Assembly (NCBI RefSeq): GCF_009469605.1
Contig: NZ_SSXU01000001.1
Location: forward strand, 372,001 to 436,000
Direction of reading: 5' to 3'
Length of the DNA: 64,000 nt
Source of the DNA: Zoogloea sp. 1C4
GTDB lineage: Bacteria > Pseudomonadota > Gammaproteobacteria > Burkholderiales > Rhodocyclaceae
The translations under genes were made by a program, and so were the position numbers. A model generated the notes under the pieces. It was not told the DNA's origin. It saw only the letters and a program-made list of their open reading frames with translations, and did no database searches. Numbering within the stretch: position 1 is the first letter of the stretch; each line of letters starts with the position of its first letter. This document shows, in pieces, positions 45,856 to 62,220 of the stretch.

Positions 45856-47358
45856 TTACAGCATCATCACCACCGACTTGGATTCGGTGTACATGTCGAG
45901 CACCGCCCGGCCCATCTCGCGGCCGATGCCGGACTGCTTGTAGCCGCCGAAGGGCATCGCGTTGTCGAGGATGTTGTGGCAGTTGACCCACACGGTGCCG
46001 GCCTTGATCTTGGGGATCAGCCGGTGCACCCGCGAAAGGTCGTTCGACCAGATGCTGGCGGCGAGGCCGTAGGGCGTGTCGTTGGCGCGGCGGGCCACCT
46101 CGTCGAGATCCTCATAGGGCATGGCCACCACCACCGGGCCGAAGATCTCCTCGCGCACCACGCGCATGTCGTCGCGGGCATCCACCAGCACCGTGGGCTT
46201 CACGAAGTAGCCCGCGCCCGCACCCGCCGAACCGCCGGCCGCCGCCCGGGCGCCCTCGCCCAGCCCGCTCTCGATGTAGCCCATCACCCGCTGGCGCTGG
46301 ATGTTGGAAACCAGCGGCCCGATCTGGGTGGAGGGGTCGATGCCGGGGCCGATCTTCATGGCGTCGGCAATGCCGGCGAGCTGCTCCACCACGGCGTCGA
46401 AGCGGCTGCGATGGACGAACAGGCGCGAGCCGGCGGTGCACACCTGGCCCTGATTGAAGAAGATCGCCTGCGCCGCGCCGGCCGCGGCCTGGGCCGGATC
46501 GGCGTCGTCGAGGACGATCACCGGGCTCTTGCCGCCCAGTTCCAGCGACACCCGGGTCATGTTGTCGAGAGCCGCCTTGCCCACCAGTTTGCCCACCTCC
46601 GTCGAGCCGGTGAAGGCCACCTTCTCGATGCCCTTGTGGCTGGCCAGCGCCGCACCGGCGGTGTGGCCGAGGCCGGTGACCACGTTGAGCACGCCCGCCG
46701 GGTAGCCAGCCTCCAGCACCAGCTCGGCGAGGCGCAGGGCCGACAGGGGTGTTTCCTCGGCGGGCTTGAGCACCATCGTGCAGCCGGCCGCCAGCGCCGG
46801 GCCAAGCTTCCAGGCGGCCATCAGCAGCGGGAAGTTCCACGGGATGATCGCGCCAACCACGCCCACCGGCTCGCGGCGGGTGAAGCCGAAGAACTCCCGA
46901 TCACGCACCAGCGGCACCGACACGTCCATGGTCGAGCCTTCGATCTTGGTGGCCCAGCCGGCCATGTAGCGCAGGAAATCCACCGACAGGGCCACGTCCA
47001 CGTGGCGCGCCATCGTCACCGGCTTGCCGTTGTCGATGGCTTCGAGCTCGGCCAGCTCCTGGGCGTGGGCCTCGACCAGATCGGCCAGGCGCACCAGCAG
47101 GCGTTCGCGATCCACCGGGCGCATCCGCGACCATTCGCCGGCCTCGAAGGCATGGCGGGCGGCGGCCACGGCCCGGTCGATGTCAGCCGCGTCGCCGGCG
47201 GGCACGCGGCAGAAGGCCTCGCCGCTCGCCGGGTCGATCACCGGCAGGGTCTCGCCGCTGGCGGCCTCCTGCCATTCGGCGCCGATCAGCATGCGGCGGG
47301 GTCGGGCGAGGAAGGCGGCGGTGCCGGCTGCGAGCTCGATTCCGTGGAAGTTATTCAT
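45856..47358 (-). CDS. NAD-dependent aldehyde dehydrogenase, phenylacetaldehyde-dehydrogenase-like
   Basis: 500 residues from MNNFHGIELAAG. The active-site Glu is about residue 273 (SLELGGKSP), the nucleophile Cys about 307 (NQGQVCTAGS), and PWNFPLLMAAWKLGPALAAG and FTGSTEVGK bind cofactor. It resembles FeaB/StyD-type phenylacetaldehyde dehydrogenases. It is the last gene of the run that begins with the aromatic amine dehydrogenase, so it likely oxidises the aldehyde made from phenylethylamine or tyramine. A hairpin in the 124-bp gap upstream may allow separate control. Confidence 0.88.
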   Translation of the reverse strand: MNNFHGIELAAGTAAFLARPRRMLIGAEWQEAASGETLPVIDPASGEAFCRVPAGDAADIDRAVAAARHAFEAGEWSRMRPVDRERLLVRLADLVEAHAQELAELEAIDNGKPVTMARHVDVALSVDFLRYMAGWATKIEGSTMDVSVPLVRDREFFGFTRREPVGVVGAIIPWNFPLLMAAWKLGPALAAGCTMVLKPAEETPLSALRLAELVLEAGYPAGVLNVVTGLGHTAGAALASHKGIEKVAFTGSTEVGKLVGKAALDNMTRVSLELGGKSPVIVLDDADPAQAAAGAAQAIFFNQGQVCTAGSRLFVHRSRFDAVVEQLAGIADAMKIGPGIDPSTQIGPLVSNIQRQRVMGYIESGLGEGARAAAGGSAGAGAGYFVKPTVLVDARDDMRVVREEIFGPVVVAMPYEDLDEVARRANDTPYGLAASIWSNDLSRVHRLIPKIKAGTVWVNCHNILDNAMPFGGYKQSGIGREMGRAVLDMYTESKSVVMML

Positions 47359-47427
47359 GGGCTTGTCTCCTTCGTTGGTTTTTGTGGGCGAAACGGGGCC
47401 TGCCGGGCCGGCGCCCGACATGGGAAG

Positions 47428-47449
47428 CGGCAATCGCGGCGGATTGCCG
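47428..47449 (-). terminator. Hairpin between the TerB-like and aldehyde dehydrogenase genes
   Basis: CGGCAATC (47428-47435) and GATTGCCG (47442-47449) form a perfect 8-bp stem with a 6-base loop, in the largest gap (124 bp) of the aau run. No T-run. It may be an attenuator or terminator ahead of the dehydrogenase. Confidence 0.35.
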
Positions 47450-47482
47450 GGGGTTGGGATGGGGTTTCCTTGGGGTGGTCGA

Positions 47483-47962
47483 TCAGGCGTCGCCGGGCTC
47501 GCCGCGCAGCACGCCGGAGCGGGCGCTGGCGGCGGCGCGGGCCAGGGCCACGGCGTCCTCGTCCAGCTCGAGCTGGCGGGCGAGGCGGCTCATCAGCCGG
47601 CCTTCGAGCTTTTCCAGGCCGTCGGCGTAAGCCACCTCCCACAGCATGGTGAGGATCTCCTGGCGCTCTTCGGGGCCGAAGCCGACGCGCACCGCCTCGG
47701 CAAACTCCCAGTCGTCGAGCGCCTCGGCGTAGCGCACCTCGGCCACCGCGATGAGTTCGTCGACGCGCTCCCGGGGCAGGTGGAAGTGCTCCATCAGCAG
47801 GCGCTTGACGGCCTGATGTTCGGCCTCGGAGGCCACGCGATCCACGTACATGGTTTCCAGCAGCAGGGCCGCCACGGCGATCAAGCGGCGCTCGAAGGGG
47901 CCGCGCTCGACGGCCTCCGCCAGCAGTTCGCCGCGCAAAAGGCCGATCAGTCTTTCCAGCAT
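47483..47962 (-). CDS. TerB-like protein (COG4103-type)
   Basis: 159 residues from MLERLIGLLRGELLAEAVER. Helical and acidic, with the TerB pattern of paired helices: LLLETMYVDRVASEAEHQAV, then ILTMLWEVAYADGLEKLEG, where the acidic residues follow D-G/R-x2-S/L. The TerB fold binds metal in tellurite-resistance proteins; the stand-alone members are of unknown role. There is no membrane segment. It lies 16 bp after the YCF48-like gene, an unusual partner for an amine-oxidation operon. Confidence 0.75.
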   Translation of the reverse strand: MLERLIGLLRGELLAEAVERGPFERRLIAVAALLLETMYVDRVASEAEHQAVKRLLMEHFHLPRERVDELIAVAEVRYAEALDDWEFAEAVRVGFGPEERQEILTMLWEVAYADGLEKLEGRLMSRLARQLELDEDAVALARAAASARSGVLRGEPGDA

Positions 47963-47978
47963 GGTTGGGTCTCCGAAG

Positions 47979-48941
47979 TCATTGGCCTGCGGTTTCGCGC
48001 AGGAGCCCGTTCTGGCCGAGCAGCACCACGGCCTTGCCGGCGGTGGCGACGGCGGCGAGGTTCTGGCGGTCGTCGCGGATGTGGGTGACGAGCTTGCCGT
48101 CGCGGGACGTGACCACCGCCCCACCGGTGCCCACCAGCAGCAGGCTGCCGTCGTCCCGCTCGACACCGCCGGTGAGGGCCTGGGTGGTGCCGGTGTCCAG
48201 CACCTGCCAGTGGCTGCCGCCGTCGGCGCTTTCCAGTACCCGGCCGCTCATGCCCAGCAGCAGCAGGTGGCCGTCACGTCGGGCGAGCCCGCCCCACAGG
48301 GATCCGGTGACGCCGGTGTTGAGGCGCTCCCAGTGCCCGCCCCCGTCGCGGGAGCGGAAGGCCGAACCGCTCTCGCCGGCGGCGATCAGCGCGCCATCCG
48401 GCGCGGCGAAGAGGTGGTTCAGGTGCGGATCGGCGTCGCGCCCCTCGCCCACCTTCATCGGCTGCCAGCTGCGGCCGCCGTCGGCGGTGGCTAGCGCCGT
48501 GCCGTAGGCGCCCACAACGTAGCCGTGGGTGGCGTCGGTGAAATGCACGCCCAGCAGCACCGGCTTGCCGTCCACCACCTGCTGGAGCGTCCAGTTGTCG
48601 CCGCCGTCGGTGGTGGCGAGGATCACCCCGCCGTGGCCCACCGCCCAGCCGTTCTTCGGGTCGGCAAAGCTCACCGCGGTGAGCAGGCCGCTCACCGGCA
48701 CGCTGGCGGCCTGCTGCCAGGTCTCGCCGGCGTCGCTGGATCGCACCACGGTGCCAAAGTCGCCCACCGCCACCAGCGAGGCGCCGGCGCGGGCGACGGC
48801 CACCAGCCCGGCCCGGCTGGCGAGGCGGGCCTTCATGGCCGGGGTTTCGCCGGCCGGGCGGCTCTCGGCGGCGGTCACCAGCACCGCGCCGGCGGCAAGG
48901 CTGGCGGCCAGCAGCAGGGTCATCGTTGTCTTGAGTTTCAT
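47979..48941 (-). CDS. Secreted YCF48-like beta-propeller protein
   Basis: 320 residues from MKLKTTMTLLLAASLAAGAV. A signal peptide of about 24 residues precedes five or six repeats with the BNR/YCF48 pattern (SSDAGETW, TTDGGDNW, TADGGRSW, SRDGGGHW, SADGGSHW). YCF48 is a photosystem II assembly factor; in heterotrophs this family travels with RND transporters and DUF1302/DUF1329 genes. A periplasmic adaptor or scaffold role is inferred. It starts 11 bp after the RND gene. Confidence 0.85.
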   Translation of the reverse strand: MKLKTTMTLLLAASLAAGAVLVTAAESRPAGETPAMKARLASRAGLVAVARAGASLVAVGDFGTVVRSSDAGETWQQAASVPVSGLLTAVSFADPKNGWAVGHGGVILATTDGGDNWTLQQVVDGKPVLLGVHFTDATHGYVVGAYGTALATADGGRSWQPMKVGEGRDADPHLNHLFAAPDGALIAAGESGSAFRSRDGGGHWERLNTGVTGSLWGGLARRDGHLLLLGMSGRVLESADGGSHWQVLDTGTTQALTGGVERDDGSLLLVGTGGAVVTSRDGKLVTHIRDDRQNLAAVATAGKAVVLLGQNGLLRETAGQ

Positions 48942-48952
48942 GGGCGTCTCCG

Positions 48953-51316
48953 TCAGTGCATCATCAGCGGCGCCCGGACCGGCCCGCGACGGGGGATCAG
49001 GACGTCGATCATCACGGCCAGGGCGGGCAGCAGGGTGATGGCCATGATCATGTTCACCATGAACATGAAGGTCAGCAGCATCCCCATGTCGGCCTGGAAC
49101 TTGAGCGCCGAGAACGACCAGGTGGCCACGCCCACCGACAGGGTGACGGCGGTGAACACCGTCGCCACGCCCACCTCGCGCAGGGCCTGCTTGAAGGCAG
49201 TGACGATGTCCTCGCCGTGGGAGAGGTGCATCTGCAGGCGGTTGTAGATGTAGAAGGCGTAATCCACGCCGATGCCCACCGCCAGCACCATCACCGGCAG
49301 GGTTGCCACGGTGAGGCCGATGGAAAGCTCCTTCATGAACCAGTAGCCCAGGAAGGTGGCCAGAGTGAGCGGCACGCAGCAGGCGATCATCGCCCGCCAG
49401 TCGCGATACACCAGGAACACCAGCACCAGGATGGTGGCGTACACATAGAGCATCATCGGCAGCTCGGAGTGTTCGACCACCTCGTTGGTGGCGGCCTGCA
49501 CGCCGGCGTTGCCGCTGGCGAGGCGCACCGTGACCCCGGCAAAGGGGTTGGCGTCGCGGTACTGCTTCACCGCGGCCACCACTTCCTTGATGGTGCTGGC
49601 CTTGTGGTCGGCAAGGTAGAGATTCACCGGCAGCAGCGTGCAGTCGGCGTTGTAGAGGCGCAGGCCTTCCGGCACCTGGCGCACGGCTTCGCCGAGGGTG
49701 AGTTCCTCTTGCGGCAGCGAGGCCCACTTGGGGTTGCCCTCATTCACCCCGGACGCCGCCAGCTTGGTGAGCGTGGGCAGCGACTGGGCCGACAGCACGC
49801 CGGGCACGTTGGTGAGATACCAGGTCAGCCGATCCACATAGGCCATCACCTCGTGCTGGTAGCAGCCGTCCTTGGGCGTCTCGACCACCACCGTCAGCAT
49901 GTCGAGGCCGAGCCCGAAGCGGCTCACCACGGCTTCCACATCCTGGTTGTAGCGGGAGTCGTTGTGGAGTTCCGGCGCGCCGGGCAGCACGTGCCCCACG
50001 TGGCGGCCCTGGCTCTGCCACACCGCCACCACCAGCAAGCCGAGGCACACCACGGTACCGATGAAGGCGTTGCGCGGGCTGGCGATATGTACGCCGAGGG
50101 CCGCCATCAGCCGGTTGCGCATGCCCTCCACCTTGCTCGCCCGGGCCACGAAGCGGCCGTCGAAGCTGAAAAAGCTGGCCAGCACCGGCAGCATGATGAG
50201 GTTGGTGACGATCTTGTAGGCCACGCCCACCGACGCCGTGATGGCCAGCTCGCGGATCATCGGGATGGGCACCAGCACCAGGGTGGCAAAGCCCACGAAG
50301 GCGGTGATGAGCGCCAGCGTGCCCGGCACCAGCAGGCCGGTGAAGCTGCGGGTGGCGGCGGTGAAACCGTCGGCCCCGTTGATGACCTCCTTGGCGATGT
50401 AATTGACCTGCTGGATGCCGTGGGAGACGCCGATGGCGAACACCAGGAAGGGCACCAGCACCGCCAGCGGATCGAGCCCGAAGCCGAGCAGCGTGATGGT
50501 GCCGAACTGCCACACCACCGACACCAGCGAGCTCGCCAGCGGCAGGAAGGTGAGCACCCACGAGCGGGTGTACCAGTACACCGCGCCGGCAGTCAGCAAA
50601 AAGGCCAGGGCGAAGAACTCGACCACGCTGGTGGCACCTTCCGAGATGTCGCCCATCTGCTTGGCGAAGCCGATGATGCGGATGTTGGTGTCGGCGTCGG
50701 CAAACTTGTCTCGCACCTCGGCCTCGAGCTTGCGGCTGAAATCGAAGTAGTCGAGGCGCTTGCCGGTGGCCGGGTCGGGGTCGGCCAGTTCGGCGACGAC
50801 CATCGCGCCGGAGCCGTCGTTGGCCACCAGGCTGCCCATGAAGCCGCCGATGATGGTGCGCTCGCGGATGCCGGCGATGTTGTCCGAGGTGAGGGATTTC
50901 ACCGTCACGTCGCCGCCGATCACGTCCTCGGCCTTCATGCCCTCCTCGGTGATCTGCACCGCGCGGGTGTTGGGCGTCCACAGGGAGGTGACGGTGCGCC
51001 GATCCACGCCGGGCATGAAGAACAGCGCCTGGGTGACGTCGTAGAGTTTGGTGAGGGCCTTCTCGTTCCAGATGTCGCCCTTCTTCGATTCGACCACCAC
51101 GATGATGCGGTTGGCGCCGAAGAGGACATCCCGGTACTGGTTGAAGGTCTGGATGTATTCGTGGTCCTGCGGCAGCTGCTTGTCGAAGCCGGCCGACATC
51201 CTGAGCTGTGCGGCAAACACCCCCATCAGGGCGGTGAAGGCCAGCAGCACGCTCAGGGTCAGCAGCCGGTGTCCGAAGAAGAAGCGCTGCAGGCCGATGA
51301 CCAGTTTCTCGATCAT
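48953..51316 (-). CDS. RND/MMPL superfamily transporter
   Basis: 787 residues. Two halves each have one membrane helix, a large periplasmic loop and a five-helix bundle. The second half contains GLTVATLPVMVLAVGIGVDY, the sterol-sensing-type G-x-D motif, and the first has the matching LVPFLVFAIGVSHGIQQVNY. This is the HAE3/MMPL class, which exports or shuttles lipids and hydrophobic molecules (compare HpnN), not the AcrB class of about 1040 residues. There is no membrane fusion protein gene beside it; DUF1302, DUF1329 and YCF48-like genes are the neighbours. Confidence 0.9.
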   Translation of the reverse strand: MIEKLVIGLQRFFFGHRLLTLSVLLAFTALMGVFAAQLRMSAGFDKQLPQDHEYIQTFNQYRDVLFGANRIIVVVESKKGDIWNEKALTKLYDVTQALFFMPGVDRRTVTSLWTPNTRAVQITEEGMKAEDVIGGDVTVKSLTSDNIAGIRERTIIGGFMGSLVANDGSGAMVVAELADPDPATGKRLDYFDFSRKLEAEVRDKFADADTNIRIIGFAKQMGDISEGATSVVEFFALAFLLTAGAVYWYTRSWVLTFLPLASSLVSVVWQFGTITLLGFGLDPLAVLVPFLVFAIGVSHGIQQVNYIAKEVINGADGFTAATRSFTGLLVPGTLALITAFVGFATLVLVPIPMIRELAITASVGVAYKIVTNLIMLPVLASFFSFDGRFVARASKVEGMRNRLMAALGVHIASPRNAFIGTVVCLGLLVVAVWQSQGRHVGHVLPGAPELHNDSRYNQDVEAVVSRFGLGLDMLTVVVETPKDGCYQHEVMAYVDRLTWYLTNVPGVLSAQSLPTLTKLAASGVNEGNPKWASLPQEELTLGEAVRQVPEGLRLYNADCTLLPVNLYLADHKASTIKEVVAAVKQYRDANPFAGVTVRLASGNAGVQAATNEVVEHSELPMMLYVYATILVLVFLVYRDWRAMIACCVPLTLATFLGYWFMKELSIGLTVATLPVMVLAVGIGVDYAFYIYNRLQMHLSHGEDIVTAFKQALREVGVATVFTAVTLSVGVATWSFSALKFQADMGMLLTFMFMVNMIMAITLLPALAVMIDVLIPRRGPVRAPLMMH

Positions 51317-51375
51317 GCTGGGGTTTCCTGTCTGGGCCGGAGCGCGGTGCGTGGCCGCGCCCCTGGCCTTGCGGG

Positions 51376-53154
51376 TCAGAACGAGTAGGAGACGCTGGCG
51401 GCCAGGAAATCCCGGTCGCGCATCAGGTTGTTGGCACCGCCGCCCGAGAAATTCACGTACTGCAGGGCGCCTTTCCAGCGGTCCCGATAGTTGGCGAACA
51501 GCGACAGGGTGGCGGCCTTGCGCCCTTCCACGAAGGGGATGGCGTTGGGGCTGGTGCCCTTCACGTCATGGGCGAAGTCGAGCTGGGGCGTGAGGGTGAT
51601 GCCGCTGCCCATCACGTTGGGGTAGTTGAAGCCGATCTCGGCCACGTAGCCCCAGGAGGTGCGATCCGGCAGCGCGTAGTTGGGCAGGAAGTACGGCGTG
51701 TAGCCCGAGCGGTCGAGATCCGGGTAGTGGGCGACGGCGGCTTCGGAGAGGATGAAGCCGTCGGTGGCGCCCAGCGCGGTGGCCAGCCCGCCCAGCGGAT
51801 CGTTGCGGGAGAAGGTGTAGAAGGCGGTGACGTGGTACTGCCACTTCTTCTCTTCCACGTAGCCCGGGTGGCGGCCCACGTCATACACGCTGTTCTTGTT
51901 GAAGGCGCCGCCGAACACCTGACCGAAGGGCACCGTCGGGTCGACGCCGACGCTGTCCCGCGGACGGAACGACAACTCCATGCCCACCGCCACATCGCCC
52001 ACCTTGGTGTTGCCAGAGATGGCGAACAGGTCCTTTTCCTGGCCGTAGGCGAGGAAGTAGCCGGTCACCGCGCCGGCATTGGTGCCGGTGAAGCCCAGGA
52101 AGGGCAGCTTGTCGTGGTAGCGCTGGTAGGTGAAGGCGAACTCGGTGTCGATCTCCTCGGCGTTGTAGCGCAGATTCACCCCGAACTGCCCGCCCCAGCC
52201 GGGCTTCTGCTGGCCCAGGTAAGGCAGCGCGGTGCCGTTGTTGATCATCTGCCGGTCGGTCAAGCCGGAGCGGTCGCCGCAGGGCGTGGGCAGGCTGAAG
52301 TCGTTGCAGATCGAGGTGGGCATGTAGGCCACCCGGTTGCCCTTGCCGATCACGTCGGCGGTGGAGAAGAAGGTGCCGGCCGGGTCGAACTTGAAGCTGT
52401 TCCAGGCAAACTGGTAGTAGGCCTCCAGCCCGAGCTTGTCAGTGATGCCGCCGGACCACGACACCATCGGCGCCGGCACGAAGATCTCCTTGAGCTGGGT
52501 GCCGGGCACGTGGAACTTCTGCAGGTCGAGGGCGTTGATCTGGTTCACCCCGCCGAGGATGAAGATGTCCTCGCCCCACGAGATCACCTGATTGCCCAGC
52601 TTGATCTTGCCCCGCTGGTCGCCGTAGCGCACTTCCTTGGCGATCCACGCGTCGAGCAGCGTGGCCTTGGCGGTGACCGACGATTCGGTGAGCTCGGTAC
52701 GGCGGGTCTGGTCGGAGCGGAAGTCGTGGAACCAATACACCCGGCCGAGGGCGCTCCAGCCTTCCGGCGCCTTGAGCGACAGGTCGTGGGTGCCCTTGAG
52801 CACCGCCGACACGATGTCGCCCTTCTTGTAGTTGAGGTTGCCGTCATCGAAGTTGGTGAAGTTGAAGTCGGCGTTGGCGTAGCCGTTGGCCCCCTGGCGG
52901 GCCTGGAGCTCGTTATTGGTGCCGTTGTTGCAGCCGCCGCTGTCGTTGCCGATGGTGCGGCAGTCGGTGCCCGACATGCGCCGGGTCATGCCGAAGGACA
53001 CCACCGAATCAAAGCTGCCCGACAGCCCGTCCTCGCTGCCGAAACGCACCGCCTGGGAGGGGGCGGACCAGCCGGCCACGGCCGCTGCCACCGCGAGAGT
53101 CGCCGGCGCCAGGCGAAGCCCGGCCCGGCGATGCGAGATCGCCTGAATGTGCAT
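51376..53154 (-). CDS. DUF1302 outer-membrane beta-barrel protein
   Basis: 592 residues from MHIQAISHRRAGLRLAPATL. A signal peptide ends near residue 36 (SQA). The DUF1302 start FGSEDGLSGSFDSVVSFGMT follows, then many amphipathic strands and a C-terminal Phe (SVSYSF), as in outer-membrane porins. The family is regularly paired with DUF1329 and RND genes in proteobacteria that use hydrophobic or aromatic substrates. I infer a pore or export barrel. It is 30 bp after DUF1329 and 59 bp before the RND gene. Confidence 0.87.
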   Translation of the reverse strand: MHIQAISHRRAGLRLAPATLAVAAAVAGWSAPSQAVRFGSEDGLSGSFDSVVSFGMTRRMSGTDCRTIGNDSGGCNNGTNNELQARQGANGYANADFNFTNFDDGNLNYKKGDIVSAVLKGTHDLSLKAPEGWSALGRVYWFHDFRSDQTRRTELTESSVTAKATLLDAWIAKEVRYGDQRGKIKLGNQVISWGEDIFILGGVNQINALDLQKFHVPGTQLKEIFVPAPMVSWSGGITDKLGLEAYYQFAWNSFKFDPAGTFFSTADVIGKGNRVAYMPTSICNDFSLPTPCGDRSGLTDRQMINNGTALPYLGQQKPGWGGQFGVNLRYNAEEIDTEFAFTYQRYHDKLPFLGFTGTNAGAVTGYFLAYGQEKDLFAISGNTKVGDVAVGMELSFRPRDSVGVDPTVPFGQVFGGAFNKNSVYDVGRHPGYVEEKKWQYHVTAFYTFSRNDPLGGLATALGATDGFILSEAAVAHYPDLDRSGYTPYFLPNYALPDRTSWGYVAEIGFNYPNVMGSGITLTPQLDFAHDVKGTSPNAIPFVEGRKAATLSLFANYRDRWKGALQYVNFSGGGANNLMRDRDFLAASVSYSF

Positions 53155-53184
53155 GATGGGAATCTCCTGAGTGAGGGGCGCAGA

Positions 53185-54573
53185 TCAGCGTTCGCCGCGG
53201 CGACGCAGTTCGTCCTGGCTGAAGGTGGCGGCGTTGACCCGGCCTTCCTTGCCGGCGGTGAGGTCGAGCACCTCGCCTTCGGCGGTCCAGTTGTCGGTCA
53301 CGTAGCGACGGGCCACGAGGTCGTACATCTGGTATTCGTAGGACATGCAGGCGCCCACTTCAGGCGCGGCCCACAGGCTGCCTTCCTGCACGCGCCACAG
53401 GTTGCCCTTGGCGTCGTACATATCCACGTGGAGCAGCGCCCACGAATCCTCATCCACGAAGAACACCCGCTTGGCAAAGCTGTGCCGCTTGTCGCCCTTC
53501 ACCGTGGCCTCGACCACCCACACGCGGTGGGTCTCGTAGCGCATGAAGTCGCGCTTGACGTACTCGGGCCCGAGCATGTCCTTGAACTTGTTCTTCTTGT
53601 CGATGAGCTTGTAGGAGTTGTACGGGACGATCATCTCCTTCTTGCCCACCAGCTTGAAGTCGTAGCGGTCGGGCGCGCCGGTGAACATGTTGATCTGGTC
53701 GACGAAGTACAGGTTGTCGAAGCCGGCGATCGGGTTGTCGTAGGCGAAGGTGGGCGAACGGCGCACGCGGCGCTGGCCGGGGAAGTAGATCCAGGCGTCC
53801 TGGGGCTTGTCGAGGTAGGCGTGGATCAGGTAGCCCTCACCCGCACGGGACGGTGGCGAGAGCACGTCGTAGAGCAGCTTCGAGTCGATGCCTTCCACGT
53901 CCTTGAGGGTGGTGGTCTTGGGATCGTTGAACGGGTAAAGCTCAAAGGACCACTGGCGGGTCTCGACGATGGAGCCGTCCTTGTCGGGCATCAGCGCGGC
54001 GATCTGGGCGCGGCGGCCGAGGCCGGTGTAGCGGGTCTTGTAGTTCCACAGCACCTCGACGCCGCTCTTGGGGATCGGGAAGGGCACGCCGGCGCCGTAG
54101 GCCTGCTCGAGCCGCCAGCCGTCGTCGCCGATCCTGGCGTAGGTGGCGTTCTTCTTCGTGCGCTCGGCCACGATGTCCGGCGCCGGGCAGCTGCGGTGGC
54201 TGGGGTATACGTCCAGCTTGTAGCCCTTGTAGGCCTTGATGAGGGCGGCCTGGCCCGGGGGCACCTTGTCGGCGTACTTGTCGAGGTTGGACGCGTCCAC
54301 CGAGTACAGCGGCTTGTCGTCCTTGTAGGGGTCGAGGCGGCCGGGCTTCCAGCCGGCGGGCGCCTTGGTCATGCCGCCGTCCCAGGCGGGCACGGCGCCG
54401 TCCTTGCTGGCGGCCTTCTCGGCGCCGACGGGGGTGAGATCCTTGCCCAGGCGGGCGGCGTCCTGCTCGGAGACCGCCGCCGTGGCAGTGGCGGAAAGCG
54501 TGGCGGAAAAGGCCAGCGCGAGGGCGGCGCCCACGATGCGCGGCCTGAAGGGGGTGGGGGCGTGTGTGTGCAT
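53185..54573 (-). CDS. DUF1329 periplasmic protein (LolA/LolB-like fold)
   Basis: 462 residues from MHTHAPTPFRPRIVGAALAL; signal peptide to about residue 33 (ATAA). The DUF1329 opening VSEQDAARLGKDLTPVGAEK is present, and later YFPGQRRVRRSP and DRYDFKLVGKKEMIVPYNSY. Structural relatives are the lipid-carrying LolA/LolB folds, so it may carry a hydrophobic molecule across the periplasm. Its neighbours (two cytochromes upstream, the DUF1302 barrel downstream, then RND) suggest a transport unit. The start codon was chosen for the signal peptide. Confidence 0.85.
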   Translation of the reverse strand: MHTHAPTPFRPRIVGAALALAFSATLSATATAAVSEQDAARLGKDLTPVGAEKAASKDGAVPAWDGGMTKAPAGWKPGRLDPYKDDKPLYSVDASNLDKYADKVPPGQAALIKAYKGYKLDVYPSHRSCPAPDIVAERTKKNATYARIGDDGWRLEQAYGAGVPFPIPKSGVEVLWNYKTRYTGLGRRAQIAALMPDKDGSIVETRQWSFELYPFNDPKTTTLKDVEGIDSKLLYDVLSPPSRAGEGYLIHAYLDKPQDAWIYFPGQRRVRRSPTFAYDNPIAGFDNLYFVDQINMFTGAPDRYDFKLVGKKEMIVPYNSYKLIDKKNKFKDMLGPEYVKRDFMRYETHRVWVVEATVKGDKRHSFAKRVFFVDEDSWALLHVDMYDAKGNLWRVQEGSLWAAPEVGACMSYEYQMYDLVARRYVTDNWTAEGEVLDLTAGKEGRVNAATFSQDELRRRGER

Positions 54574-54608
54574 GATGATGACTCCCTGTCGAAGGTTTGA
54601 ATCGATGG

Positions 54609-55055
54609 CTAGCGGATCGTGATGCCCTGCCCGGCGAGCCGGGTGACGATGGCCGCCCGCTCTCCGGCCACGTTGTCCAGCGGGGCGCTGCGCAAGGCGG
54701 TGACCTCCACCTCGGTGTAGGGGACGAAATCCGCCGGCAGGGTGGGCGCCGAGAAGCTGCGCACCATCCAGTTGAGGAGCCGGGTGACCTCCCGGTTGGA
54801 GAGGGCGGAATTCGAGGTGCCTGGCACCTTCACGAGAAAGGCCCGGCCCTCGGGCAGCTTGAGGAAGTGGCCGAGCTGGCCGCGCATATCGGGCACGCCG
54901 GAATCCGGCGCGCCGTGGCCGTCGGCCTGGTGGCAGCCGGCGCAGTGCAGGATGTACTGCATCCGTGCCGTGTGGTCGGCGTCGGCCACGGCCGGCCCGG
55001 CGGCCAGCCCACCGCCCGTGAGGGCGACAGCCAAGGCGAGCCGGGCGGCCTTCAT
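54609..55055 (-). CDS. Periplasmic c-type cytochrome (second of a pair)
   Basis: 148 residues. Signal peptide to about residue 24 (AVADA). A single haem site CAGCH (in ILHCAGCHQADGHG) lies close to the N terminus, and candidate axial Met residues occur in VPDMRG and NWMVRS. It starts with ATGA overlap on the preceding cytochrome gene, so the two are translationally coupled. In this setting it is a likely electron acceptor of the amine dehydrogenase. It is too small and single-haem to be a MauG-type maturation enzyme. Confidence 0.85.
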   Translation of the reverse strand: MKAARLALAVALTGGGLAAGPAVADADHTARMQYILHCAGCHQADGHGAPDSGVPDMRGQLGHFLKLPEGRAFLVKVPGTSNSALSNREVTRLLNWMVRSFSAPTLPADFVPYTEVEVTALRSAPLDNVAGERAAIVTRLAGQGITIR

Positions 55056-55528
55056 GACCCGCTCCCTTTGCCAACCGTGCCGCCCGCACCCGCAGCCCCG
55101 TCGCGCAGCTTGCGCACCTGATGGGGCGCGAGCTGCTCGGCCCGGGCCTCGGCCAGGTCGGCCGCGGTGTAGGGCTGGTGGGTGTCGGGCAGCGTGCCGG
55201 CGTTGAAGCTGCCGACCACGTGGTTGAGCACCGCCGCCAGATCGGCGTCCGGCAGCTGGGCGAAGGACGGCATGGAGCCGGTGTAGCGCGTGCCCTGCAC
55301 GGTGATCGGGCCGACCATGCCGTGGGTGACCACCCGGGGCAGGTAGCCGCGGCCGGCCACCTGCAAGCGTTCGCCCAGGGTGCCGGCCAGCGGCGGGGCG
55401 ATCCCCGGCAGGCCGGTGCCGCCCGGCTGGTGGCACATCACGCAGTGGGTGGCGAAGACCGCGGCGCCGTCGGTGGCCGCCGCGGGCAAGGCCGCTGCAC
55501 AAAGAAGGCTGGCGAGCAGGGTACGCAT
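55052..55528 (-). CDS. Periplasmic c-type cytochrome (first of a pair)
   Basis: 158 residues from MRTLLASLLCAAALPAAATD; signal peptide of about 18 residues. One haem site CVMCH (in ATHCVMCHQPGG) and a candidate Met ligand in GSMPSFAQL give a class I cytochrome c. It lies 14 bp after the small subunit gene of the amine dehydrogenase and overlaps the next cytochrome by 4 bp. I infer the immediate electron carrier in place of azurin/amicyanin, for which no gene is visible here. Confidence 0.87.
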   Translation of the reverse strand: MRTLLASLLCAAALPAAATDGAAVFATHCVMCHQPGGTGLPGIAPPLAGTLGERLQVAGRGYLPRVVTHGMVGPITVQGTRYTGSMPSFAQLPDADLAAVLNHVVGSFNAGTLPDTHQPYTAADLAEARAEQLAPHQVRKLRDGAAGAGGTVGKGSGS

Positions 55529-55542
55529 GGCGGGCCTCACCC

Positions 55543-56070
55543 TCAGCCTTCGGCCACGCCGACCACCGCCGCGAGCGTGCAGTGGAACATCGTCGAGTCG
55601 TTGGACATGCACCAGTTGATGTCGTTATGCACGCCCATCCGGTAGGCCGGCCGTTCCCGCTCGTTGGTGTTGCACAGGCAGCGTCCGCAGGCGGTCTTGC
55701 CGCAGCAGTCGTTGTAGCTGATGAGGTAGTCCTTGCCGTCGTCCGGGTTGCGGCAGGTGCCGATCCAGGCGACCTTGGAGGCCTCGGTGCCCGGCGGGCA
55801 GGTGGCGGCGGTGCCGCCGCAGCACGAGCACAGGTAGCCGTCCTGGGCGCAGTAGCGCCAGTATTCGCAGTCCTGGTCGCCGGGCTTGGCGTTGGCGGCC
55901 TTGCGGGCGGCGCCGGCGGCGGCCTGGGCGGTGCGGTCGAAGGGCAGCACCGGCAGCACGAAGGCGGTGCCGACCATCAGCTTGCCGATGCGGATCAGCG
56001 CGCCGCGGCGGGAGCTCTGCTGGGCTACCTTGCGGGTCTTCCGCTCGAACAGGTCATCGAGCCATTTCAT
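55543..56070 (-). CDS. aauA: Aromatic amine dehydrogenase, TTQ-bearing small subunit
   Basis: 175 residues. A twin-arginine signal (QQSSRRGALIRIGKLMVG) leads to a Cys-rich mature part with 14 Cys. The two Trp that form tryptophan tryptophylquinone are Trp102 (SKVAWIGTC) and Trp153 (NDINWCMSN). They are 51 residues apart, as in methylamine dehydrogenase (57 and 108). The catalytic base is Asp121 in YLISYNDCCG. With the large subunit it deaminates primary amines in the periplasm. Methylamine dehydrogenase is the alternative, but the cytochrome partners and the phenylacetaldehyde-type dehydrogenase favour an aromatic substrate. Confidence 0.92.
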   Translation of the reverse strand: MKWLDDLFERKTRKVAQQSSRRGALIRIGKLMVGTAFVLPVLPFDRTAQAAAGAARKAANAKPGDQDCEYWRYCAQDGYLCSCCGGTAATCPPGTEASKVAWIGTCRNPDDGKDYLISYNDCCGKTACGRCLCNTNERERPAYRMGVHNDINWCMSNDSTMFHCTLAAVVGVAEG

Positions 56071-56098
56071 GGTTGTCTCTCCTTGGGGTTGGGAGCGG

Positions 56099-56695
56099 TC
56101 AGGCGTGCTGGTGGTCGATGAAGTCCTGCACCGAGGCGACGCCCATCTCCTTGGCGGTGAAGAGGCTCTCGAGCTGCTCGCGGGAGTTCACCAGGCCCTT
56201 GGCCACCACCCGGCCGTGCTCGTTGAGGAGCACCGCGTAGGGCAGCTTGGCCACCCGGTAGGCGATGCCGGGCTCGCTGGACAGCACGTAGGGGAATTCC
56301 TTCAGGTCGGCTTTCTCGTAGAAGGCCAGGTGCTCGGGCTGCTCGCCGTCGGAGGTGAGCACCACGCGCAGCCAGTCCTGTTCGGTGCGATTGACCGAGC
56401 GGAGGATGGGCAGCAGCTTCTTGCACACCGGGCAGGTGGGCGACAGGAAGAACAGCAGCGTGCTCTTGTCGGCCGGGCGGCCGATGGTGACGCGGGTGTT
56501 GCCCACCAGCGCCGGCAGGTCGAACACCGGTGAGGCCTCGCCGACCTTGGGGCCGGTGTCCATCATCAGCGCGCCCATCGGGGCCACGCGCTCGTACAGC
56601 ACGCCAATCTGGCGGGCCAGGGCAAACAGTCCGACGAGGGCGGCCAGGACGGCGATCCACAGCAGGACGTTCGAAATCATCAGGGCTTCGGTCAT
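56099..56695 (-). CDS. aauD: MauD-like thioredoxin-fold maturation protein
   Basis: 198 residues. An N-terminal membrane anchor (about residues 8-27) precedes a thioredoxin fold with the redox pair Cys88/Cys91 in FLSPTCPVCKKLLP. In the mau/aau systems MauD and MauE are needed to form the disulfides of the small subunit. It starts 2 bp after the aauE stop and lies 28 bp upstream of aauA, the canonical B-E-D-A order. Confidence 0.9.
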   Translation of the reverse strand: MTEALMISNVLLWIAVLAALVGLFALARQIGVLYERVAPMGALMMDTGPKVGEASPVFDLPALVGNTRVTIGRPADKSTLLFFLSPTCPVCKKLLPILRSVNRTEQDWLRVVLTSDGEQPEHLAFYEKADLKEFPYVLSSEPGIAYRVAKLPYAVLLNEHGRVVAKGLVNSREQLESLFTAKEMGVASVQDFIDHQHA

Positions 56696-56697
56696 GA

Positions 56698-57324
56698 TCA
56701 GTTCCTCTCAAGAAAACGCAGGGCCGCCCCAAGTTTTCTTGCCCCCCTCGGGGGGCGGGCCGGGCTGGGCCCGGCCTTGGGGGCGCTAAGTTGAATCAGG
56801 CGGGGGTGGTTGGCCATCAGCTGGTTGGCAGTGGCGTAGAGGCCGAACAGGGCGAGGGTGCCGCCGGCGACGGTGAGGTAGTCGATCCACATCAGGTCGC
56901 GGCTGCCGCCGTCCTGTCCGCCGAGCACGGCGAGGATCATCAGCAGGGTGTTGCGGGCGGGGAGCGCCCAGCTGAGGGTGGTGTGCCCCCCTGCTCCGCC
57001 GCAGCCGCAGTCGATGTCGGTGTGGCCGCGCAGCAAGTTGGCGACGACGCCGGCGGTGGCAAGGCCGAGCACCGCCACCGACAGCACCAGCCCGACGCTG
57101 CGGGTGGCGTCCAGCAGCAGGGCGACGCCGGCCACCGCCTCCAGCACCGGGAAGGCCCGGGCGAAGAGCGGCACCAGGGCCTCGGGCAGCAGCCGGTACA
57201 GGTCGACCGATGCCTCGAAGACCGCCAGGTCACGCAGCTTCTGCCACGCCCCGGTGAGCAGCACCACCGCGATCGCCGCCCCGCAGGCGCGGGCCAGCAC
57301 GGGGTCAAGAGCCAGGGCGTCCAT
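56698..57324 (-). CDS. aauE: MauE-like membrane protein for small-subunit maturation
   Basis: 208 residues with four membrane segments. A Cys pair in TDIDCGCGGAG fits the DoxX/MauE redox role with MauD. The start overlaps the aauB stop by one base (TGATG). The last 22 or so residues, after RLIQLSAPK, are Pro/Arg/Ala-rich and are encoded by a repeat made of two perfect hairpins (56741-56776), so the true family end is probably near residue 187. This is an insertion of a repeat into the 3' end that kept the frame open. Confidence 0.9.
   Translation of the reverse strand: MDALALDPVLARACGAAIAVVLLTGAWQKLRDLAVFEASVDLYRLLPEALVPLFARAFPVLEAVAGVALLLDATRSVGLVLSVAVLGLATAGVVANLLRGHTDIDCGCGGAGGHTTLSWALPARNTLLMILAVLGGQDGGSRDLMWIDYLTVAGGTLALFGLYATANQLMANHPRLIQLSAPKAGPSPARPPRGARKLGAALRFLERN
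56741..56776. repeat. Double-hairpin G/C repeat inside the aauE 3' end
   Basis: GCCCCCC-TC-GGGGGGC (56741-56756) is followed directly by GGCCGGGC-TGG-GCCCGGCC (56758-56776), two perfect stems. This pattern resembles intergenic repeats common in betaproteobacteria. Here it is translated as the tail of aauE. A related G/C hairpin occurs at 6940-6958. Confidence 0.65.
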
Positions 57325-58466
57325 CAGTGCAGCTCCATCTGGGTGGGCGTCTCGCCGATGCCTTCCATGCGCTTGGCGAGGGCGAGCTTGCCCTTGGCAT
57401 CGAACACCGCGATGGCGGCCTTCACGCCGTCGTAGGCAAACAGGCGGGCACCGTCGCCCTGGCTCACGGCCAGCGCGATGGCGTTGTTGCCGGGGGTGCG
57501 GGCGACGCGCTTCTTGCTGGCCAGATCGACGGTCCAGATCTCCTTGGCCGGCGTCTTGTGACTGCCCTCGAAGCCCTTGTCGTGCATCCCCACGAACAGC
57601 CGGCCGCTGGCGTTGTGCTGGGCGATCAGCTGGTAGCCGCCGGGGCGCCAGCCCTGCTTGCGGTCGGCGGCGGAGAGGATCGACCAGGGGGCGTCGAAGC
57701 TCGCCACCTCGCCGCCCACGTGGGCGGTGTAGACATCGCCCAGGAAGGACACGAAGCGGTAGGTGTCGCCGTCCTGCTCGCCGTGGATGAAGATCGGGTC
57801 CTTGTCGGCGTCGAAGAACTTCGCGCTGCGCTTCTGGCTGGCGACCTGGCCGGCGGCGTCGAGGCTGACGGTGAGCAGCGTGCCGTCGCCGCAGACGGTG
57901 GAGAAGCGCCCGCCGGTGGTGGCCGCCGGCAGGATGCTCCAGCAGCCGGGCGTCGCCACCTCGGCCACCATCTGGCGCTCCTTCAGGTCGATCACCCCCA
58001 CCGAGGTGGCCGGGGTGGCGAACTGCACGAACAGCCAGCGCCCGTCGCTAGAGGGCCGGATCGTGCCCTTGTAGTTGAGCGACTGGGCATGGCGCGGCGG
58101 GATGGCGATCTCGCCGGTCTTGGCGAGGGTCTGGGCGTCATGCACGTCCACCACGTCGGTACGGGTGCCGTGGTTAAGGCGCGTGTAGTAGGTGGTCGCA
58201 ACGAAGATTTCCTTGCGATCAGCCGACAGGATGGCCTGGCCGGCGTAGCCCGTGGCGATCACCCCTTCGTAGCGCAACGAGGTGCCATCCACCACGTGCA
58301 GGCGTCCATCCACGATGTGGCCAATGGAAACGTCCGACAGATAGATGCGATACGGATTGGCCGGCGGCAACTTGCCGGTGGTTATCGCTTCCGGAGCCAG
58401 TTCGGCGCTGGCGCCGGCACACAGGCCCAGCAACAGCAAGCTCCCCGCTAACGATTTTCGAAGCAC
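57324..58466 (-). CDS. aauB: Aromatic amine dehydrogenase large subunit
   Basis: 380 residues. The start is GTG with AAGGAGG 5 bases upstream; a longer open frame upstream lacks such a site. A signal peptide of about 22 residues (ending SAE) precedes a seven-bladed propeller typical of MADH/AADH heavy chains: PYRIYLSDVSIGHIVDGRLH, then CWSILPAATTGGRF and GEQDGDTYRFVSFLG. The large subunit scaffolds the TTQ small subunit as an a2b2 enzyme in the periplasm. It is the first gene of the leftward run, 354 bp from the divergent AraC gene. Confidence 0.92.
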   Translation of the reverse strand: MLRKSLAGSLLLLGLCAGASAELAPEAITTGKLPPANPYRIYLSDVSIGHIVDGRLHVVDGTSLRYEGVIATGYAGQAILSADRKEIFVATTYYTRLNHGTRTDVVDVHDAQTLAKTGEIAIPPRHAQSLNYKGTIRPSSDGRWLFVQFATPATSVGVIDLKERQMVAEVATPGCWSILPAATTGGRFSTVCGDGTLLTVSLDAAGQVASQKRSAKFFDADKDPIFIHGEQDGDTYRFVSFLGDVYTAHVGGEVASFDAPWSILSAADRKQGWRPGGYQLIAQHNASGRLFVGMHDKGFEGSHKTPAKEIWTVDLASKKRVARTPGNNAIALAVSQGDGARLFAYDGVKAAIAVFDAKGKLALAKRMEGIGETPTQMELH

Positions 58467-58820: not shown

Positions 58821-59828
58821 ATGGACTTGCACCCCAGGAGAAGCGGCACCGAACCCGGCCCGTTCAGCGCATTTGCCACCACCCAAACCGAAGACGCCCA
58901 CGAGCACGCATGCAGCCTGCAACAGTGGATCCAGGCCTACGAACAGCTCTCGCCAGGCCGCTTCAACGGCGAGATCGAAGAGGCCTGGTTCGGCAATGTG
59001 CAGGTATTCCGTGAGCGTACGAACCAGATGGTTCACGAGGCCGGATCTTCCTGGAAAGGCTCGCGGACATTCGGGATTCCACTGAACCTCGAAGGCCAGG
59101 GCTGGTACTGCGGCGAGTCCTTCGACCGGGACACGATGCTCACCTTGCATGGCGGCGAGGAGCTTGATTTCCGCACCCCGCGGCAGCTCGACGTGGTGGC
59201 CATCACCACCCACAAGGAAGTCTTCAACAATTACGCCCTGCGCACCAAAGGCCGCGACATCGAAGCCGAACTCGGCAAGCGGCGGATCATCCCCAGCAGC
59301 GCCGAGAAGATGCAGGAGCTCAGCGCCCTGCTCCTCACCGTGCTCGACACCGCCCGCAACACCCCGCACATTCTTGGGCACGCCGCCATGCGCAAGGCGA
59401 TGGAGCACGCCATCTTCGACAGCCTGCTAGCCGTAATCGGCAACGGCGTCGATGCACTCCGTCCGCCATCCACCAGCCAGGCCCGCCGCCAGATCGTCGA
59501 TCGCGCCCGGGAATACATGCGCCACCACGTGAACGAGCCCATCACCGTGGCCGACCTGTGCGCCGAACTCAACGTCTCCCGCCGCACCCTGCAATACAGC
59601 TTCCAGGACGTGCTCGACGTGAATCCGGTGAGCTTCCTGCGGGCCATGCGCCTCAACGGCGTGCGCCGCGCCCTGCGTAACGGGGACGGCCGCGAATCAG
59701 TCACCGACGTGGCGCTGCAGTGGGGCTTCCTGCACCTCTCCCACTTCGCCGCCGACTACAAGGCGATGTTCGGCGAGCTCCCTTCCGAAACCCTCCGGCG
59801 CCGGCTGGGCGTGCCGGATGCAAGCTGA
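58821..59828 (+). CDS. AraC family transcriptional regulator, EutR-like
   Basis: 335 residues from MDLHPRRSGTEPGP. The N-terminal 200 residues are the EutR/FeaR-like sensing domain, with VFRERTNQMVHEAGSSWKGS and a central SRTFGIPLN. The C-terminal AraC DNA-binding domain has both helix-turn-helix units: TVADLCAELNVSRRTLQYSF and VTDVALQWGFLHLSHFAADY. It is divergent from the aauB operon, so it likely activates it in response to an amine or aldehyde, as FeaR does for tyramine oxidase in E. coli. Inducer inferred. It ends at a strong bidirectional terminator. Confidence 0.88.
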   Translation: MDLHPRRSGTEPGPFSAFATTQTEDAHEHACSLQQWIQAYEQLSPGRFNGEIEEAWFGNVQVFRERTNQMVHEAGSSWKGSRTFGIPLNLEGQGWYCGESFDRDTMLTLHGGEELDFRTPRQLDVVAITTHKEVFNNYALRTKGRDIEAELGKRRIIPSSAEKMQELSALLLTVLDTARNTPHILGHAAMRKAMEHAIFDSLLAVIGNGVDALRPPSTSQARRQIVDRAREYMRHHVNEPITVADLCAELNVSRRTLQYSFQDVLDVNPVSFLRAMRLNGVRRALRNGDGRESVTDVALQWGFLHLSHFAADYKAMFGELPSETLRRRLGVPDAS

Positions 59829-61982: not shown

Positions 61983-62015
61983 GTGTTCGTCTCCTCCGCT
62001 ATAACGGATTGTGTT

Positions 62016-62031
62016 CCGGGTTTTAACCCGG
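62016..62031. promoter_or_regulatory. 16-bp palindrome, candidate upstream activator site
   Basis: CCGGGTT-TT-AACCCGG has perfect 7-bp arms. It is 34 bases from the activator start codon and about 190 bp upstream of the sigma-54 promoter, within the usual range for activator sites. It may serve both autoregulation and pedF activation. Confidence 0.5.
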
Positions 62032-62204
62032 TTTATGGTGAGTGCTCCAGAATGTAGCAGCCGAATCATATTTCAGCAATGTGACTGCTCCACGGCGGAT
62101 ACCTATGAGCAAACTCCGTTCCAGTTTATTCACCCATAAGAAAAACTAAGAAACCCGCCTCCAGCGCCGGAAAGCCGAGACACCCCCGCAGAAGCCGTGA
62201 CAAG

Positions 62205-62220
62205 TGGCACGCCCCTTGCT
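62205..62220 (+). promoter_or_regulatory. Sigma-54 (-24/-12) promoter of pedF
   Basis: The sequence TGGCACGCCCCTTGCT matches the consensus TGGCAC-N5-TTGCW exactly, with GG at 62206-62207 and GC at 62218-62219. Transcription should start near 62231, so in-frame ATGs at 62223 and 62226 cannot be used, and the GTG at 62304 is the start. Confidence 0.88.

Follow-up and report, generated by a model that had tools for sequence, protein, structure and literature searches.

The genome of Zoogloea sp. 1C4 holds an operon in which the genes for an aromatic amine dehydrogenase (AADH) are followed by a cassette of four envelope genes encoding DUF1329, DUF1302, MMPL, and YCF48 proteins. Comparison with other genomes reveals a real and recurrent partnership of known parts: the cassette belongs to an amine-linked lineage of the AmeABCD kind, and its partner enzyme has been exchanged. 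The operon occupies positions 45856 to 58466 of a stretch of 64,000 nucleotides (contig NZ_SSXU01000001.1, positions 372,001 to 436,000), referred to below as the window. Judging from the genes that accompany it, the cassette probably handles a hydrophobic amine or its aldehyde. Our tentative reading, to which we give a probability of about 0.4, is that it would form a proton-driven route through the envelope that clears such an aldehyde or amine and would be protective, not catalytic.

Organization of the operon and identity of the enzyme

The twelve genes lie on the minus strand and are transcribed from 58466 toward 45856 in the following order:

57324..58466 (-), aauB, AADH large subunit of 380 amino acids with a signal-like N-terminus (PF06433, E 1.3e-42; AADH structures, 5e-91)
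56698..57324 (-), aauE, MauE-like membrane protein (named from its position; no NCBIfam match; co-linear in relatives)
56099..56695 (-), aauD, MauD, thioredoxin-like (TIGR02661, above cut-off)
55543..56070 (-), aauA, AADH small subunit (PF02975, 1e-52; 2agl_D, 9.4e-55)
55052..55528 (-), cytochrome c with one CxxCH (PF13442/PF00034)
54609..55055 (-), second small cytochrome c-like protein with one CxxCH (by motif; no Pfam match at 1e-3)
53185..54573 (-), DUF1329, putative LolA-fold periplasmic carrier, AmeB-like (PF07044, 3.7e-134; predicted model)
51376..53154 (-), DUF1302, predicted outer-membrane beta-barrel, AmeA-like (PF06980, 2.5e-139; predicted model)
48953..51316 (-), MMPL/HAE3-like resistance-nodulation-division (RND) transporter, AmeD-like (PF03176; TIGR00921 HAE3, 1.5e-49, below cut-off)
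47979..48941 (-), YCF48/BNR propeller with a signal-like N-terminus, AmeC-like (PF14870, 8.1e-23)
47483..47962 (-), TerB-domain protein without signal or transmembrane-like stretch (PF05099, 4.6e-26)
45856..47358 (-), aldehyde dehydrogenase without signal-like stretch (best model StyD phenylacetaldehyde dehydrogenase, 758 bits, missing the cut-off of 850)

All genes named in the initial annotation are present on this one strand, with mostly small gaps of -4 to 124 nt. In the enzyme part the gaps are -1 (aauB-aauE), 2 (aauE-aauD), 28 (aauD-aauA), 14 (aauA-first cytochrome), and -4 nt (between the cytochromes); those of the cassette part are 35 (second cytochrome-DUF1329), 30 (DUF1329-DUF1302), 59 (DUF1302-MMPL), 11 (MMPL-YCF48), and 16 nt (YCF48-TerB), and the widest, 124 nt, separates TerB from the aldehyde dehydrogenase. 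After revision of the starts, that of the aldehyde dehydrogenase is most likely at 47358, that of DUF1329 at 54573, and that of aauB at 58466 (GTG). A scan for terminator-like sites found six, none of them in the operon gaps; as shuffled sequences gave a mean of 6.6, this number is not above the shuffled level. We infer a single transcript.

Since the nearest solved chains of both subunits are those of AADH (heavy chain AauB, E 5e-91 against 1e-31 for the best methylamine dehydrogenase (MADH) chain; light chain AauA, 9e-55 against 3e-47), the enzyme is assigned by homology to AADH and not to MADH, and the subunits score below the NCBIfam equivalog cut-offs for MADH. W102, W153, D121, and T165 of AauA are invariant in the nine rows of alignment A1; we take them to be the tryptophans of the tryptophan tryptophylquinone (TTQ) cofactor and the catalytic Asp and Thr. 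The closest named AauA among the matches listed is 99% identical and belongs to Zoogloea sp. MAG.512. The gene set aauBEDA is shared with the aau operon of Alcaligenes faecalis, and AADH structures are the nearest solved homologues; the described A. faecalis cluster reportedly continues with other downstream genes, and we know of no such envelope cassette in it. Elsewhere in the genome of the window, two PaaA/PaaC-family genes are found, as expected for the use of phenylacetate, the acid downstream of the aldehyde, and the single DUF1329 match is the gene of the operon itself.

Recurrence of the partnership

The association of aauBEDA with the cassette, suspected in the initial annotation, is recurrent. 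Among the best 80 of at least 578 relatives of AauA, which are nearest relatives and not an even sample, 45 have DUF1329, DUF1302, and MMPL genes no more than 10 kb away, either downstream or in divergent orientation upstream, the latter position alone being used in four of them (L051, L080, L086, and L109). Six further loci carry a partial set, five of these near a contig end; 18 show no cassette and are short on at least one side, and the other 11 are taken up with the proposed role. Among the named holders are Zoogloea, Cognatazoarcus, Parazoarcus, Dechloromonas, Derxia, Pseudoduganella, and Variovorax. Random placement relative to aau, which the initial annotation had set against its own proposal, was not observed; yet several aau loci have no cassette, four of them in Cupriavidus (L078, L093, L101, and L104). 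On a plasmid of C. pinatubonensis, aau and the cassette are both present, approximately 5 kb apart.

Furthermore, the linkage exceeds chance in a sample of 399 genomes drawn evenly from the order, which partly overlaps the 80 nearest loci. A strong TTQ light chain was found in 22 of these genomes and a full-length DUF1329 in 43, both together in seven (Fisher p 0.005), and in six of the 22, all among the seven with both, DUF1329 lies within 3 kb of the light chain. With up to four candidates scored per genome, at least 17 full-length genes for DUF1329 were counted in the seven genomes; six of these genes are within 3 kb of AauA, where about 0.02 would be expected from a hand calculation with 6 kb per approximately 4.5 Mb per DUF1329 gene. 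The six linked genomes are not all independent, because G111 and G363 share one genus. The 11 further strong-match genomes of a phylum sample (398 genomes) at most overlap the order sample, and among those fetched one besides the window carries the cassette (G540, L133). Nine loci from the order sample that were grouped as MADH-like by their identity (L125, L127 to L129, L131, L145, L147, L150, and L152; short stretches in the case of L125 and L152) show no cassette.

Counts from the genome searches are lower bounds, as the candidates scored per genome numbered 11 (light chain in the order, phylum), four (DUF1329 in the order), two (class), and five (second family, see below). For DUF1329 in the order, 40 stretches were fetched, covering 42 of the 56 full-length places outside aau, and the open reading frames (ORFs) of relatives were called by a simple script. 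Several loci met in this survey are peculiar. L114 (G058, 8705; the same gene as L013) has a TTQ-type light chain without several of the usual cysteines and a large subunit only 38% identical, and its genome also holds a normal, cassette-linked AADH. L099 and L102 are contigs of metagenome-assembled genomes titled Klebsiella pneumoniae, whose AADH loci are approximately 60% identical to the query; these bins may be mislabelled.

Cassette lineages and exchange

A tree of MMPL proteins (104 rows) is divided by a branch with full support (SH-aLRT 100), one side of which, 67 rows, holds 53 of the 54 aau-linked rows. In this first lineage the usual order is DUF1329-DUF1302-MMPL-YCF48, with exceptions at L189, L235, L236, L244, L247, and L248, and only part of the lineage has a TerB gene; cassettes of the other lineage mostly show the order of AmeABCD. 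Within the first lineage, the cassettes linked to aau form two main groups. The tree of AauB rejects a grouping of all loci that carry group I cassettes (approximately unbiased (AU) test, p 6e-8 with 47 rows; p 5e-4 with 40 rows after removal of long-branch and unstable rows), and the trees therefore indicate an exchange of cassettes among aau loci. L043 and L050, for example, are sister rows in the AauB tree but have cassettes from different groups. The trees are quick searches in which long branches were flagged. Seven overlapping loci (L193 to L198 and L211) are left out of the first MMPL tree, and L051, L211, L118, L119, L122, L112, and L116 out of the AauB tree; the AauB repeat also lacks L064, L044, and L048, unstable between MMPL trees, and the long-branched L052, L133, L212, and L049. 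The last MMPL tree lacks the loci missing from the first as well as further outliers and duplicates, and from the main set of the other lineage it keeps only four rows.

There are more complicated cases. At L074 a single aau cluster has a cassette on either side: the upstream one, in divergent orientation, is of the other lineage, and the downstream one is of the amine-linked lineage. L133, from a different family of the class, has an MMPL protein 78% identical to that of the window and aau proteins only 38 to 51% identical (AauB and AauA). The MMPL row of L051 sits on a very long branch (2.76) with an odd composition, possibly from a broken reading frame.

The enzyme has also been exchanged beside the cassette, whose first lineage is repeatedly paired with non-homologous amine oxidases. 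L168 has the AraC-family gene, the cassette, the TerB gene, and a StyD-like dehydrogenase gene, and its enzyme is a quinohemoprotein amine dehydrogenase (QHNDH; PF09098, PF14930, and PF09100); a relative of this QHNDH, at L220, scores above the cut-off of TIGR03908. At L174 a copper amine oxidase stands beside a first-lineage cassette. The cofactors of the two enzymes are presumably cysteine tryptophylquinone (CTQ) and topaquinone (TPQ), respectively. When the 64 genomes of a first family were searched with MMPL (E up to 1e-225), 11 cassettes were found, of which six adjoin AADH and four QHNDH (10 of 11 in all), the last being cut by a contig end (L221, G1152). Genome-wide searches found exactly one of the two enzymes, in single copy, in each of the ten linked genomes, and neither in that of the eleventh. 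In the reverse direction, QHNDH occurs in six of the 64 genomes: four copies adjoin the cassette, one has none within 20 kb (L255), and one is on a contig of 3 kb. In a second family (195 genomes, 28 cassettes), two cassettes lie beside QHNDH and two beside copper amine oxidase; several of the stretches are short (for example, L228, L244, L248, and L250). Cassettes with QHNDH fall at three separate positions in the cassette tree, one of them within an AADH group (L240, SH-aLRT 100). A class sample of 369 genomes gave two cassettes 63% identical, one of which, L200, adjoins aau.

No AADH, QHNDH, or copper amine oxidase was found by tblastn (E up to 1e-20) near 31 loci of the other lineage, a set that leaves out L183, L190 to L192, L208, and the second cassette of L074. 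The three enzymes together accompany 14 of 39 first-lineage loci against none of these 31, a contrast weakened by the fact that QHNDH and copper amine oxidase were first noticed in two of the 39 (L168 and L174). A broader count of amine markers (25 of 50 against 0 of 31 loci) was discarded as a test, since the marker list had been drawn up after the first group was viewed.

Wider gene neighborhood and control signals

An aldehyde dehydrogenase gene lies in the fetched stretch (approximately 20 kb) of 23 of 50 first-lineage cassettes against three of 31 of the other lineage (Fisher p 6e-4). Pfam tallies of the flanks, made with no preselected markers, cover 105 of the 142 listed flanking ORFs of the other lineage and 104 of the 128 of the second family, the omissions being mostly fifth ORFs and some long ones. 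In the second family, aldehyde dehydrogenase is at the top (11 of 104 proteins), followed by helix-turn-helix regulators and amino-acid permeases, and copper amine oxidase, glutamine synthetase, class III aminotransferase, peptidase C26, and ceramidase occur twice each; at L240 and L252 the fifth ORF replaced a long fourth one, a substitution that contributes one copper amine oxidase of the two. The other lineage has thiolases at the top (6 of 105), then AMP-binding enzymes and LysR regulators (five each) and aldehyde dehydrogenases (three). Single first-lineage loci carry gamma-glutamyl amine genes (L235 and L246), a flavin amine oxidase (L227), trimethylamine-dehydrogenase-like genes (L186 and L239), ethanolamine ammonia-lyase (L189), or a pyrroloquinoline quinone (PQQ) dehydrogenase (L184), and at many others no amine-related genes were seen (for example, L178, L216, L236, and L245). 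L186 had also been considered as a neighbor of PQQ dehydrogenase and was rejected after its full sequence was examined by eye. Neutral ceramidase genes adjoin the first-lineage cassettes L229 and L232, which suggests a sphingosine-like amine as cargo there.

Upstream of the operon in the window are two regulatory genes:

58821..59828 (+), divergent AraC-family regulator (best model EutR, 206 bits, missing the cut-off of 319)
59952..62069 (-), sigma-54 activator, a neighbor that probably belongs to a divergent plus-strand operon

The AraC-family gene, which has a comparable position in many relatives, likely regulates the operon. A sigma-70 promoter scan gave no site, and no sigma-54 site with up to two mismatches lies between aauB and the AraC-family gene. 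An exact sigma-54 -24/-12 consensus, the single perfect match, is found at 62205-62220 (+) between the sigma-54 activator gene and the plus-strand operon, which encodes a seemingly quinoprotein-associated periplasmic binding protein (named by eye).

Known relatives of the cassette

The initial annotation knew of no description of this gene combination. For the four envelope genes, descriptions do exist. AmeABCD of Castellaniella defragrans consists of AmeA (DUF1302), AmeB (DUF1329), AmeC (COG4447), and AmeD (HAE3 RND), the same families that are adjacent on one strand in the Zoogloea operon, where the RND protein is a candidate HAE3 member; AmeABCD lies inside a catabolic island, is induced by monoterpenes, and its deletion lowers terpene tolerance (PMC6394551). 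After co-culture with limonene, though not in acetate-grown cells, the deletion slightly raised Nile Red accumulation in cells treated with the uncoupler CCCP (PMC6394551). The Zoogloea cassette is a variant of AmeABCD, because its order (DUF1329-DUF1302-RND-YCF48) differs from DUF1302-DUF1329-COG4447-RND and its MMPL protein belongs to a separate lineage; cassettes in Ame order form the other lineage, mostly 38 to 47% identical, AmeD itself being outside the tree. The partners differ as well, terpene enzymes in the one and an amine dehydrogenase in the other.

The same four families also form COG4447-COG1033-PF07044-DUF1302 operons controlled by AphR/AphS/AphT in betaproteobacterial aromatic catabolism, for which a role in coping with toxic aromatics and solvent stress was suggested; unlike the operon of the window, these belong to phenol-type regulons, and "amine dehydrogenase" is absent from the main text of that paper (PMC6449761). 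In Pseudomonas putida, PP_0765, PP_0766, PP_2018, and PP_2019, which encode DUF1302, DUF1329, a periplasmic protein, and an efflux transporter, are needed on Tween 20 and were proposed to be a transport system, whereas their locus numbers suggest two separate places and the substrate is a detergent ester (PMC10866462). Deletion of a DUF1329 gene impairs growth on phenanthrene, as cited in PMC13101534, and DUF1329, YCF48, and MMPL proteins of one cluster were highly expressed in a benzene culture (PMC13101534). SphA, considered as a possible case of a DUF1302 protein acting on a hydrophobic amine, was rejected because it is a COG4313 channel. A link of such cassettes to amine dehydrogenases was not found in the accessible text of the open-licence papers searched; as far as these searches reach, the partnership is the new element.

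Predicted structures, proposed role, and alternatives

The DUF1329 model (pLDDT 81.5) has a predicted LolA-like fold, with LolA3 9tp6, 4z48, and 3bk5 as best matches (TM-scores 0.41 to 0.43 by query length and 0.73 to 0.77 by target length). DUF1302 (pLDDT 74) models as an outer-membrane barrel resembling OprB, OpdK, and a BenF-like porin, with low TM-scores of only 0.33 to 0.41 by query length. The best NCBIfam match of the MMPL protein is TIGR00921 (HAE3), 168.8 bits against a cut-off of 351.9; its H299, kept in all 98 rows, and its D685, kept in 95 of them, stand where hydrophobic stretches end and are a possible proton path. Pfam and NCBIfam scans found no membrane-fusion protein or TolC-type channel, as in HAE1 tripartite pumps, among the operon proteins. 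These models and residues would fit a pump in the inner membrane, a carrier in the periplasm, and a barrel in the outer membrane.

In the clearance reading, AADH would oxidize aryl-alkylamines in the periplasm and pass electrons to the two cytochromes. The resulting aldehyde, hydrophobic and reactive, would arise at the inner membrane, and its consumer, the StyD-like dehydrogenase without signal sequence, would be cytoplasmic. The cassette would remove the aldehyde, or the hydrophobic amine and amine-aldehyde adducts, from the periplasm and the outer leaflet of the inner membrane, with MMPL and YCF48 at the inner membrane, DUF1329 as a soluble LolA-like carrier, and DUF1302 as the outer-membrane barrel, perhaps in one complex; it would protect the cell during fast amine oxidation from outside the catalytic pathway. 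The deletion of AmeABCD is counted as a precedent for export or tolerance (PMC6394551), and clearance is favored because the aldehyde would form in the periplasm and its dehydrogenase inside. The recurrent linkage, the exchange of cassettes and of enzymes, the surplus of aldehyde dehydrogenase genes near first-lineage cassettes, and the PaaA/PaaC-family genes for the downstream acid also speak for it. The initial annotation had proposed a trans-envelope route for a hydrophobic amine, aldehyde, or cofactor. Its tie to the amine dehydrogenase is well supported by the linkage, the cassette exchange, and the enzyme swaps, and a cofactor is an unlikely cargo because the same lineage adjoins enzymes with other cofactors. 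A stronger version, in which the first lineage is a dedicated envelope partner of quinoprotein amine oxidation, kept as an exporter of aldehydes or amine-aldehyde products formed in the periplasm while TTQ, CTQ, and TPQ enzymes are repeatedly swapped, is itself unlikely.

Several points weigh against clearance. Phenylacetaldehyde should pass membranes unaided. Among the 80 AauA loci, 11 have no cassette despite at least 8 kb visible on both sides, and the cassette is therefore dispensable for aau. In the second family, 24 of the 28 cassettes are accompanied by no enzyme of the three kinds, and AADH adjoins not a single one of the 28; no amine enzyme was seen at L199, the other 63% identical cassette of the class sample, and the second cassette of L074, of the other lineage, adjoins aau. 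In addition, loss of the Tween 20 genes (PMC10866462) or of the cited DUF1329 gene (PMC13101534) impairs growth on the substrate, which fits uptake equally.

Uptake of hydrophobic amines, the main rival and a rather doubtful one, would use DUF1302 as a specific outer-membrane channel and DUF1329 to carry the amine to the periplasmic enzyme, and MMPL would recover the fraction that partitions into the inner membrane. It agrees with the need for related genes on Tween 20 (PMC10866462) and phenanthrene (cited in PMC13101534), and two cassettes of the lineage adjoin ceramidase, which yields sphingosine, itself a hydrophobic amine. The resemblance of DUF1302 to the substrate channels OpdK and BenF-like porin points the same way, but this match is weak and broad, and general porins score nearly as well. 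As small soluble cations, phenylethylamine and tyramine should get through porins; characterized RND proteins are exporters, and de-energized cells accumulate less Nile Red when they have AmeABCD (PMC6394551).

A general system for solvent or envelope stress, remodeling or clearing membrane lipids in any catabolic operon that needs it, is quite improbable. Such a role was suggested for the four-gene set (PMC6449761), and the thiolases, AMP-binding enzymes, and XylR-type activators around the other lineage suit it, but the first-lineage neighborhood differs, being richer in aldehyde dehydrogenase and holding amine-oxidation genes, and the swaps between AADH and QHNDH argue for a common cargo. 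Co-localization on an often-transferred catabolic island, without joint function, would explain the many AADH loci without a cassette; the repeated separate pairings, with different enzyme families and gene orders, make it very improbable. Help in TTQ maturation or cofactor supply hardly deserves consideration: no mauG-like gene was seen in the operon, and the one match to the cytochrome c peroxidase (CCP)/MauG family in the genome is on a different contig, but the same lineage adjoins QHNDH and copper amine oxidase and many AADH loci do without the cassette.

Cassettes of the DUF1302-DUF1329-YCF48-HAE3 kind are found in numerous biodegrading bacteria. Since one lineage of them repeatedly adjoins periplasmic amine oxidases that are unrelated to each other, amines or the aldehydes made from them become the likelier cargo, and the lineage offers a small, testable system, which would also bear on how cells handle reactive aldehydes produced outside the cytoplasm.

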